From a virus, in IMG/VR virus record IMGVR_UViG_3300044712_000186, positions 1-35,154 of that record: a DNA stretch of 35,154 nt. The stretch is one strand, 5' to 3'. Within the stretch, counting starts at the first letter, position 1; each line of letters starts with the position of its first letter. Positions 19,573-21,352 of the stretch are shown piece by piece. The notes beneath the pieces are model-generated. The model worked only from the letters and a program-made list of their open reading frames with translations, was not told where the DNA came from and searched no databases. The translations under genes and the position numbers were made by a program.

Positions 19573-19946
19573 CACACCCTCTTGCATACTGTTTTTAAGA
19601 TTTCTTGAATCCGAGCCTTGTTTATCTCTTTTTGGGCTTCAGTCAATTGATTGTCAATTTGCAAGGTGTTTTCAGGCACATAGCAATATTTAAGCAATTC
19701 CATAAACTGTGGCAAGTTTGGTGGGTCGGTTGGTAAGTTGTTCAACACCTTACGCAAAGCTTCAGGTTTCTCATGGTATGGAGCAAGTTTAATTGCCCAA
19801 GCTTCCATAGCGTTAGCCATTCCATAGTCCAAGCCATTTGGCAAGGTTTTGCCCATTTTCCACAAATTAGTCCATCGTGATCCGTAATGAGATTGCATAG
19901 TGTCAAATATTTTGACAATCCAGCTATCAGGTAATCTGTTTGACAT
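19572..19946 (-). CDS. Helicase-loader-like replication protein
   Basis: This 124-residue protein resembles the C-terminal part of replication protein P-like loaders. It has MSNRLPDSWIVKIFDTMQS, then YGSRWTNLW, AMEAWAIKLAPY and NLPTDPPNLPQFMELLKYCY, a common pattern in phage replication proteins that recruit the host DnaB helicase. I chose the second of two adjacent ATGs (19946), since AGGGG stands 5 bases before it. It overlaps the YdaU-like gene by 20 bases. The role as loader is inferred. Confidence 0.75.
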   Translation of the reverse strand: MSNRLPDSWIVKIFDTMQSHYGSRWTNLWKMGKTLPNGLDYGMANAMEAWAIKLAPYHEKPEALRKVLNNLPTDPPNLPQFMELLKYCYVPENTLQIDNQLTEAQKEINKARIQEILKTVCKRV

Positions 19947-20619
19947 CATGTCCCCTTGCTTGCATAAATAGCTCTGCCAAGGCAGAAGTTCCAGTTTGTT
20001 GTTGTTTAGGGTTTTGGTCTTTTATCCACTCAGCTTTGAAACCAACCCATCCTCTAGCACAACAGAGTTCCATAGCATCTTGTAGTGAAATCCCAGCTTT
20101 TTCAGATTCTCGGATTAAACCTTTAAGTGCAGTTTCAGACCATTTAGCTTTTTTGGTTTTGCGAACTTCTAAGTAGTCTTTAAAAACAGACTCAGAAACA
20201 CCGTCAGGTGTATTTATATTTGGTTTTTGGTTATTGGTTCTTGGTTCTTGGTTAGCATTAGGGTCGCATTGGGTTGGCATTGGGATACCCATAGGTAAGT
20301 TATTGGATACCCTGTTTTTCCATCTTCTTTCAGCACCCTTTTTACCACCCTCTGATTTATTTAAATATCCTTGCAACTCCTTGTCACACCTAGAGTGTCT
20401 TAAAAACTGACCATCAACTTCAAAGTAAGTTTTAATAATCATCCTAATGGTTTTAACATCAGAACCAATTTCAAAGCTAATTTGCTCAGGATCATTAGAA
20501 ACAATCCCATCTTTGTCGTAATAAAGCCATATTAAGCGTAGGTAAGCCATAACTTGGCTATCGGTTAGCCTTGATGTAGCTTTTATAAAATCGCCTATAT
20601 GGTGCTGGTAATAGTGCAT
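19927..20619 (-). CDS. Replication initiator-like protein with DUF1376 (YdaU) domain
   Basis: This 230-residue protein has an N-terminal DUF1376 domain (residues 1-95): HYYQHHIGDFIKATSRLTDS, then AYLRLIWLYYDKDG and SEGGKKGAERRWK. A Pro/Asn linker follows, then a C-terminal segment with WSETALKGLIRESEKAGISL and ARGWVGFKAEW, typical of O-like replication proteins. It probably binds an origin and works with the loader next to it. An origin is often inside such genes, but I do not see obvious iterons. The leader RNA at 20631-20712 ends 12 bases before its start. Confidence 0.82.
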   Translation of the reverse strand: MHYYQHHIGDFIKATSRLTDSQVMAYLRLIWLYYDKDGIVSNDPEQISFEIGSDVKTIRMIIKTYFEVDGQFLRHSRCDKELQGYLNKSEGGKKGAERRWKNRVSNNLPMGIPMPTQCDPNANQEPRTNNQKPNINTPDGVSESVFKDYLEVRKTKKAKWSETALKGLIRESEKAGISLQDAMELCCARGWVGFKAEWIKDQNPKQQQTGTSALAELFMQARGHDVKQIT

Positions 20620-20630
20620 ATAGTCCTAAT

Positions 20631-20712
20631 AAAAAAAGCCCTAAACAGCAATCTCATCTTTTTTAAGGATGTTGGCGGACACCGAGTAGGTGCAGATTGC
20701 TGACTAGGGCTT
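20631..20712 (-). ncRNA. Structured leader RNA, three-way junction with U-tract
   Basis: On the - strand a long outer stem (20712-20694 with 20654-20636; 17 of 19 positions pair) encloses two hairpins. One is CACC, loop TACTC, GGTG (20692-20680). The other is CATC, loop CTTAAAAAA, GATG (20671-20655). The 3' side of the outer stem runs into seven T residues, so the whole acts like an intrinsic terminator. It stands between the Cro-like gene and the replication initiator, whose binding site AGGA and ATG follow at once. It may be a phage antisense or attenuator RNA similar in outline to C4 RNA. This is inference from folding by eye; no family was matched. Confidence 0.55.
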
Positions 20713-20753
20713 ACTCTCAACTCACCGCCAAGTGATGTGTTAATCATACCAAA

Positions 20754-20981
20754 CTATTCCAACTCTGGCCAAATAAATTTATAGACCTTTGGAAACATAT
20801 TTTTTCTGCTCATCAAGCCATAGCTTTTCTTCTCCAACTCAGCCCCTAAAAACACCATCTTGTCGTATGGTATTCCCTTGGTTTTCCATTGGGCAACAGC
20901 TGGTGGGCTTACTTTGCATAGCTTGGCAACAGCAGTTGTGCCACCTAATAAGTCTACGATTTGTGAGTCAGTTAATTTCAT
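20754..20981 (-). CDS. Cro/YdaS-like transcriptional regulator
   Basis: This 75-residue protein has a Cro-type helix-turn-helix: DSQIVDLLGGTTAVAKLCKV, then SPPAVAQWKTKGIPYDKMV, as in YdaS/Cro regulators that repress a nearby promoter. The start overlaps the HNH stop as ATGA. It probably acts on the divergent control region, where a perfect inverted repeat covers the rightward transcription start. A lysogeny-type CI partner was not found. Confidence 0.85.
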   Translation of the reverse strand: MKLTDSQIVDLLGGTTAVAKLCKVSPPAVAQWKTKGIPYDKMVFLGAELEKKSYGLMSRKNMFPKVYKFIWPELE

Positions 20982-21352
20982 AAAAAATCTTCTAACCTTC
21001 TTTTTCTTGATTTTGTGTAAATTGCTTTTTTTCTACCAATTTTGTGCTTTGCCCTACCTTTTGTTTTTTTATCAAGCATATTTTCTTGATGTGTTGCTAA
21101 AAACAAATGGTTAGGGTTTACGCACCAAGGGTTGTCGCATTTGTGGCAAACGCACAAATCTTCAGCAATTTGCCCTTTAAACAAGAAATAACTTGCTCTA
21201 CTAGCTATTACTTGATTTTTTGAATTGTTAATCTTGAATTGACCATAACCGTTTTCATTGGCAGCACCTGTCCAAGCCCAACAGTCTGTAAATGGGATTA
21301 GCTCAATTTTCTTTAAAAAGTTTTCTTTTTTGAAATCCATGATTAAGTTCAT
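20978..21352 (-). CDS. HNH endonuclease (homing type)
   Basis: This 124-residue protein has CWAWTGAANENGYGQF (24-39), SRASYFLFKGQI (51-62) and LCVCHKCDNPWCVNPNHLF (66-84), then NMLDKKTKGRAKH, the pattern of phage HNH enzymes with Cys and His ligands. I start at the ATG at 21352, with AAGG 4 bases upstream; the open frame extends to 21487 across the divergent promoter region, where it is unlikely to be translated. It precedes the Cro-like gene and probably inserted itself there. AT-richer than its neighbours by eye. Confidence 0.85.
   Translation of the reverse strand: MNLIMDFKKENFLKKIELIPFTDCWAWTGAANENGYGQFKINNSKNQVIASRASYFLFKGQIAEDLCVCHKCDNPWCVNPNHLFLATHQENMLDKKTKGRAKHKIGRKKAIYTKSRKRRLEDFL

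Follow-up and report, generated by a model that had tools for sequence, protein, structure and literature searches.

The C4 antisense RNA of phages P1 and P7 and its a1/b1 target (RF01695 and RF03163, clan CL00128) lie in one phage leader, and the annotation of the P1 record gives the order a1 (UUGACAG), b1, C4 RNA, then a2 and b2 before icd. In the satellite phage P4, CI RNA pairs with a complementary leader site, and transcription terminates prematurely before the replication genes (PMC4825925). IsrK of the Salmonella prophage Gifsy-1 (RF01394) is a short RNA with its own promoter and an intrinsic terminator, past which some transcription continues into neighboring phage genes (PMC4825925). 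What is new in the RNA described here is a strongly covarying phage family that joins target, antisense and terminator in one unit of about 106 nt before replication genes.

A structured leader between a Cro-like gene and a replication initiator

The window analyzed here is the whole of IMG/VR record IMGVR_UViG_3300044712_000186, a linear stretch of 35,154 bases, and the element lies on its − strand. An earlier note on this DNA had proposed a three-way-junction RNA with a terminator tail at 20631-20712, located between a Cro-like gene and the replication initiator and thus in front of the replication genes. The fold was confirmed: the segment is predicted to have a 16-pair outer stem, broken by a single U-U mismatch, that encloses two inner hairpins and is followed immediately by U7, and its folding energy of -32.5 kcal/mol compares with -15.3 ± 3.0 kcal/mol for dinucleotide-preserving shuffles (z -5.77; 0 of 200 shuffles as good). 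The location also stood, as the upstream product matches P22_Cro, the downstream product is of the DUF1376/primosomal type, and relatives show the same placement; the view that the RNA is more elaborate than an ordinary terminator was likewise supported. The coordinates, however, hold only for the 3' part. The 5' part, comprising a hairpin (P0) and a linker, was missed, and the three-way junction and U7 run are merely the 3' portion of a conserved 106-nt RNA that begins at 20736. The features are as follows.

20754..20981, −, upstream gene, Cro-like repressor of 75 aa (PF14549 P22_Cro, 2.7e-07)
20743..20772, −, candidate promoter of the RNA, TTGGCC - 18 nt - TATGAT with an extended −10 (TG), from a consensus scan
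20631..20736, −, whole 106-nt leader or small RNA (covariance model R1, 89.5 bits, E 5e-19, the window itself belonging to the R1 training set; 55-row alignment A1)
20722..20736, −, 5' hairpin P0, with loop and 3' arm UUGGCGG forming site a (20725-20731); covarying stem pair
20712..20716, −, linker segment b (GAGUA), immediately 5' of the outer stem; pairs with b'
20695..20711, −, 5' strand of outer stem P1, the putative terminator stem; compensatory changes, 99.4% of cells paired
20680..20692, −, inner hairpin P2, with loop UACUC forming b' (20684-20688); stem and loop covary
20672..20678, −, junction strand a' (CCGCCAA) between the inner hairpins, with complementarity to site a in the P0 loop; 100% paired
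20655..20671, −, inner hairpin P3, loop CUUAAAAAA; both variable pairs covary, CA/UG base invariant
20637..20653, −, 3' strand of P1, its last U shared with the U run; support as for the 5' strand
20631..20637, −, U7 run, putative intrinsic terminator tail; U run in 55 of 55 rows of A1
20624..20627, −, AGGA, Shine-Dalgarno sequence of the initiator, from the sequence
19927..20619, −, downstream gene, DUF1376/primosomal-type replication initiator of 230 aa (phrog_6451, 4.9e-27; PF07120, 5.3e-14)

The −10 box occupies 20748-20743, which places the predicted start at 20736, the first base of the P0 hairpin, and the promoter overlaps the 3' end of the Cro-like gene. The initiator, which also matches phrog_678 (replication initiation O-like, 5.4e-18), has its ATG at 20619-20617, 11 nt past the U run. 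Immediately next to the Cro-like gene, and on its strand, is an ORF for an HNH homing-type endonuclease (window 20978-21343).

A search of the window with the whole Rfam 15 library at the gathering threshold returned tRNA only, and a search of 20500-20850 at E 10 returned nothing relevant; the comparison with C4 and other phage motifs that the earlier note had recommended therefore produced no family match at the element. The resemblance to C4 that it had drawn nevertheless holds for the layout, though not for the Rfam model. Sites a and b are followed by b' in a loop and a' in the junction, and because this order matches the P1 annotation, the resemblance is real. In both RNAs an outer stem surrounds two hairpins, b' lies in a hairpin loop and is followed by a' (CUGUCAA in P1) in the junction strand, and upstream of these a lies in a UUGRYRG-type hairpin loop and is followed by b, such that target and antisense share one phage leader. 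The core reads GC-hairpin-GUCUGUCAAC in P1 and GC-hairpin-GUCCRCCAAC here. In contrast, the accessory hairpin is 3' of a' here but 5' of the b' hairpin in P1, and a/b is directly upstream here but about 80 nt away in P1; the element lacks a2/b2 at the ribosome binding site, has a built-in terminator, and precedes a replication initiator rather than icd/ant.

With the Rfam C4 model (RF01695), neither the window, at thresholds as loose as E 10, nor locus L103, at E 0.5, gave a match; P1 C4, the positive control, scored 68.8 bits with this model. Models for c4-a1b1 (RF03163), int-alpA (RF02996), isrK (RF01394) and PK-repZ gave no match in the window at the gathering threshold or in 20500-20850 at E 10. 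Conversely, R1 does not recognize P1 C4, and a core model of 27 positions located P1 C4 correctly but with an E value of 7.2, which is not significant. The descriptor GC-hairpin-GUYYRYCAAC matched three C4 loci (L247-L249) and had 0 matches in 0.77 Mb of shuffled sequence. By layout, then, the element appears to be C4-like, rearranged and with a built-in terminator; family membership is not claimed. A seeming excess of TTGGCGG in the window was discarded as mostly composition, with 12 copies against 2.5 in dinucleotide shuffles but against 8.2 under an order-5 expectation.

Members of the family and covariation of their pairings

A search with the initiator gave 80 loci, and several of the closest relatives share the structure, with compensating changes, upstream of the initiator. 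These relatives revealed an upstream hairpin whose loop, UUGGYGG, complements the junction sequence CCRCCAA, and a segment of the linker that can pair with the loop of P2, the first of the two inner hairpins. Scanning for the hairpin and junction pattern yielded 113 viral contigs. We examined 87 distinct pattern matches, at least one of which (L152, viral set) is a chance match, and R1 confirmed nearly all of the others at about 70-121 bits. R1 further confirmed L040, the variant L006 (41 bits), the bacterial genome contig L229 and the environmental phage MW202462. Two isolated phages, Pseudomonas phage AH02 (83 bits) and Leptolyngbya phage Lbo-JY16 (79 bits), carry the RNA according to R1, making it immediately testable. 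In a scan of 84,980 species genomes the pattern matched 40 times in bacterial genomes, and since L229 alone was confirmed by R1, most of these matches are due to chance; the plasmids scanned contained no member. Members are mostly metagenomic contigs, and the RNA is an uncatalogued family present in over a hundred mostly environmental phage sequences. A search of open-access papers for a UUGGCG pseudoknot or leader antitermination of phage initiators returned nothing about this RNA.

The proposed structure was evaluated in 54 distinct sequences, in which 97.4% of cells are paired, compared with 37-42% when the partners are slid by 1-3 columns, and 28 of 41 pairs have double-sided changes. Compensating changes in the stem, named in the earlier note as a check, are found in 14 of the 16 pairs of P1, and P2 and P3 covary too. 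In P0, the pair at column 4/13 covaries (CG/AU/GC/UA) and the other inner pairs are invariant; the loop sequence of P3, CUUAAAAAA in the window, is not conserved across A1. The pairing of the linker with the P2 loop (b:b') is doubly changed in four of four counted pairs, which are 100% paired, a fifth pair, A-U, being nearly invariant; b:b' is fully paired over 5 nt in 52 of 55 rows. The pairing of the UUGGYGG loop with the CCRCCAA junction (a:a') is also 100% paired, with one covarying pair in A1 (C-G to U-A), and in the variant L006 it reads UGACAG/CUGUCA, with two further compensated positions. Because a:a' varies at a single pair in A1, the evidence for it lies mainly in that pair, in L006 and in its perfect conservation.

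A regulatory contact between the loop AUCCUUAA and the ribosome binding site of the initiator, as the earlier note had envisaged, was rejected. The 5-nt match present in the window is not conserved in relatives, and the longest complementary run in 54 members averaged 3.54 nt, as against 3.60 nt with shuffled partners. The covarying contacts are instead the two pairings made with the 5' hairpin and the linker, both outside 20631-20712.

G-U pairs occur at several P1 positions, and R1 scores on the opposite strand were 20-33 bits compared with about 70-121 bits, arguing that the element functions as an RNA on the − strand of the window. A DNA cruciform or origin structure was rejected on the same two grounds.

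The position of the promoter was also conserved. A −10 hexamer with at least four of six matches to TATAAT lies exactly 6 nt before the first base of the RNA in 48 of 73 distinct members, whereas the mean count at other offsets in these members is 4.2; the −35 peak is weaker. With the −10 fixed 6 nt before P0, the predicted transcript starts with P0, and termination at the U run would make it 106 nt long. The start codon follows 8-15 nt past the end of the RNA in most members. Proteins encoded downstream mostly match primosomal or replication-initiation families, and 27 of the 67 scanned match phrog_6451; several upstream genes in relatives encode small Cro-like HTH proteins. Comparison of the sequences demonstrates the RNA, its helices, both extra pairings, the position of the promoter and the placement before genes.

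These data bear on one alternative explanation, namely that the element is a plain strong terminator of the Cro-like gene, with a small RNA as by-product and the initiator unregulated. The stem and U run are excellent as a terminator, and phage genomes pack terminators tightly; nonetheless, such a terminator would explain neither the fixed upstream promoter nor the covarying a:a' and b:b' and the invariant junction, and the stop falls within the leader of the following gene, where another promoter would not fit. We find this explanation hardly credible.

A minority of members precede HNH or GIY-YIG endonucleases or other genes that are not initiators, which counts against the attenuator interpretation given below. 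In L110, L141, L166, L091, L111, L117 and L187, the RNA precedes a gene for a GIY-YIG, HNH or other small endonuclease, and these genes may have been inserted between the RNA and the initiator. In L125, L129, L135 and L190, an extra hairpin-like insert separates the promoter from P0, which is not the 5' end of the RNA there, and a box resembling TATCAT or TAGTAT lies about 25 nt further upstream.

Attenuation, action in trans and sensing as possible mechanisms

Segment b adjoins the 5' end of P1, where the stem is most distant from the junction, and b' occupies the P2 loop, at the junction. When b:b' was placed together with a complete P1 in idealized A-form helix geometry, neighboring nucleotides (alignment columns 33 and 34) were at least 21 Å apart, which means that b:b' can form only if 3-6 pairs beside the U run open; in this geometric model, b:b' is sterically incompatible with the complete terminator stem. 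Growing transcripts were folded by a nested thermodynamic calculation, which is distinct from a kinetic simulation and ignores pseudoknots. For transcripts ending before the 3' strand of P1, the probability of a:a' was above 0.5 in 55 of 55 sequences and that of b:b' in 40 of 55, whereas at full length both were about 0 in the 55 sequences and the lower P1 was at least 0.86. The switch in the window came at a transcript length of about 90-92 nt, and the intermediate had a:a' at 0.95, yet b:b' was weak (0.01). Mean stacking energies were -8.7 kcal/mol for b:b', -11.9 for a:a' and -14.8 for lower P1. Covariation, idealized geometry and length-dependent folding, all of them computational, thus point to a terminator and an antiterminator that exclude each other and are both conserved, which is what an attenuator calls for. 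As the terminator wins completely at full length, read-through would need a further factor or kinetic trapping.

On balance, we favor the interpretation of the element as a bistable transcription attenuator that forms the promoter-proximal leader of the operon for a phage replication initiator. The switching during transcription, the termination, the trigger and any action in trans, all of which we infer, would proceed as follows. RNA polymerase would initiate at 20736, and in the growing transcript a (UUGGCGG) and b (GAGUA) would pair with a' (CCGCCAA) and b' (UACUC), sequestering the 5' strand of P1 and serving as the antiterminator. Once the 3' strand of P1 emerged, P1, P2 and P3 would form, and the lower stem and U7 would terminate transcription 11 nt before the initiator start codon, freeing a stable RNA of about 106 nt. 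Initiator output would then be set by whatever extends or blocks the a/b pairing. With a' and b' retained, the terminated RNA may also pair with sites a and b on other transcripts still being made, favoring termination as feedback or immunity, as C4 RNA and P4 CI RNA do. The RNA probably acts as the on-off switch of the replication gene, and, if the attenuator interpretation is true, these phages time the onset of replication by RNA alone, like plasmids and satellite P4.

The element could instead act primarily in trans, as an antisense or immunity RNA like C4 or P4 CI; b' and a' of the terminated RNA, made by a phage that is resident or co-infecting, would then bind a and b of the nascent leader of another copy, and the pairings seen in cis would be merely the footprint of complementarity in trans. 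This alternative, which we consider rather unlikely, draws on the P1 layout, where a1 and b1 are likewise upstream of C4 with its b' hairpin loop and then a', on L006, which carries P1's exact a sequence UUGACAG, and on P4, whose replication genes are blocked by premature termination driven by CI RNA (PMC4825925). The P4 likeness is functional, residing in RNA-RNA pairing (CI RNA, seqA, seqC) that controls termination before replication genes; CI RNA, however, arises by processing of a long leader and is flanked by targets on either side, whereas the element combines antisense and target in a single terminated RNA and has its only target upstream. The diversity of b also fits action in trans, there being 15 five-mers in 55 rows that nonetheless match their own loop in 52 of 55, compared with 15% of unlike combinations. 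Arguing against it, the window has no second target, and a2-like UUGRYRG sites within 150 nt downstream occur in 7 of 73 members when 10.0 are expected; moreover, the single confirmed member among the species genomes scanned is at odds with an immunity RNA, which would be expected in prophages, and the constant spacing to the start codon points to action in cis. Carried further, the terminated RNA would be a diffusible replication-control and superinfection-immunity RNA that silences the initiator of a co-infecting phage with matching b/b', and the b types, at least 15 in number, would represent immunity groups among mostly environmental, perhaps non-integrating phages; we regard this proposal as quite doubtful.

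The bistable attenuator was also weighed against a riboswitch or protein-sensing leader, in which the conserved junction and docked 5' hairpin would form a pocket and a ligand or protein would stabilize one state. Bases that are unpaired or in the junction around CUGC, GUCC and UGAG do not vary, which goes beyond the needs of simple attenuation, and the order of promoter, aptamer-like domain, terminator and start codon is riboswitch-like. However, the downstream genes suggest no metabolite, no ligand or protein partner is indicated, and the invariant bases may serve a/a' docking alone, which makes a sensing role very unlikely in our judgment.

Other phage RNAs similar in position or organization

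Of the cases described so far, P4 CI RNA and IsrK come nearest to the element in function. The promoter, short terminated RNA and read-through of IsrK resemble the attenuator proposed here; IsrK differs in activating translation of the read-through mRNA in trans and in lacking the three-way junction followed by a'. On the leader with a1/b1 in P1 (L247:1031-1112), the Rfam isrK model scored 35 bits (E 3e-6), short of the gathering threshold; this score suggests that IsrK is related to c4-a1b1.

The int-alpA RNA (RF02996) is also a three-way-junction phage RNA, and in relatives it occupies the position of the element, ahead of genes for the same initiator family. It differs from the element in its core sequences, GGCUAGG and CGAAAAG, and in that its hairpin loop is antisense to a downstream site rather than to an upstream hairpin. 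RNAs of the int-alpA type lie directly upstream of the initiator at L027:2910-2976, L030:2023-2099, L035:2911-2978 and L051:2911-2978, and matches just below threshold were found upstream of the same initiator family in L037, L042 and L048. The presence of these C4-like int-alpA RNAs at the same place suggests that phages recurrently put replication initiators under the control of RNA. The second loop of int-alpA (for example UCGUUAC, UCAUCAC or UCGUCAC) complements a site about 20 nt downstream (GUAACGA, GUGAUGA or GUGACGA, respectively), and changes in loop and site match between loci, as judged by eye.
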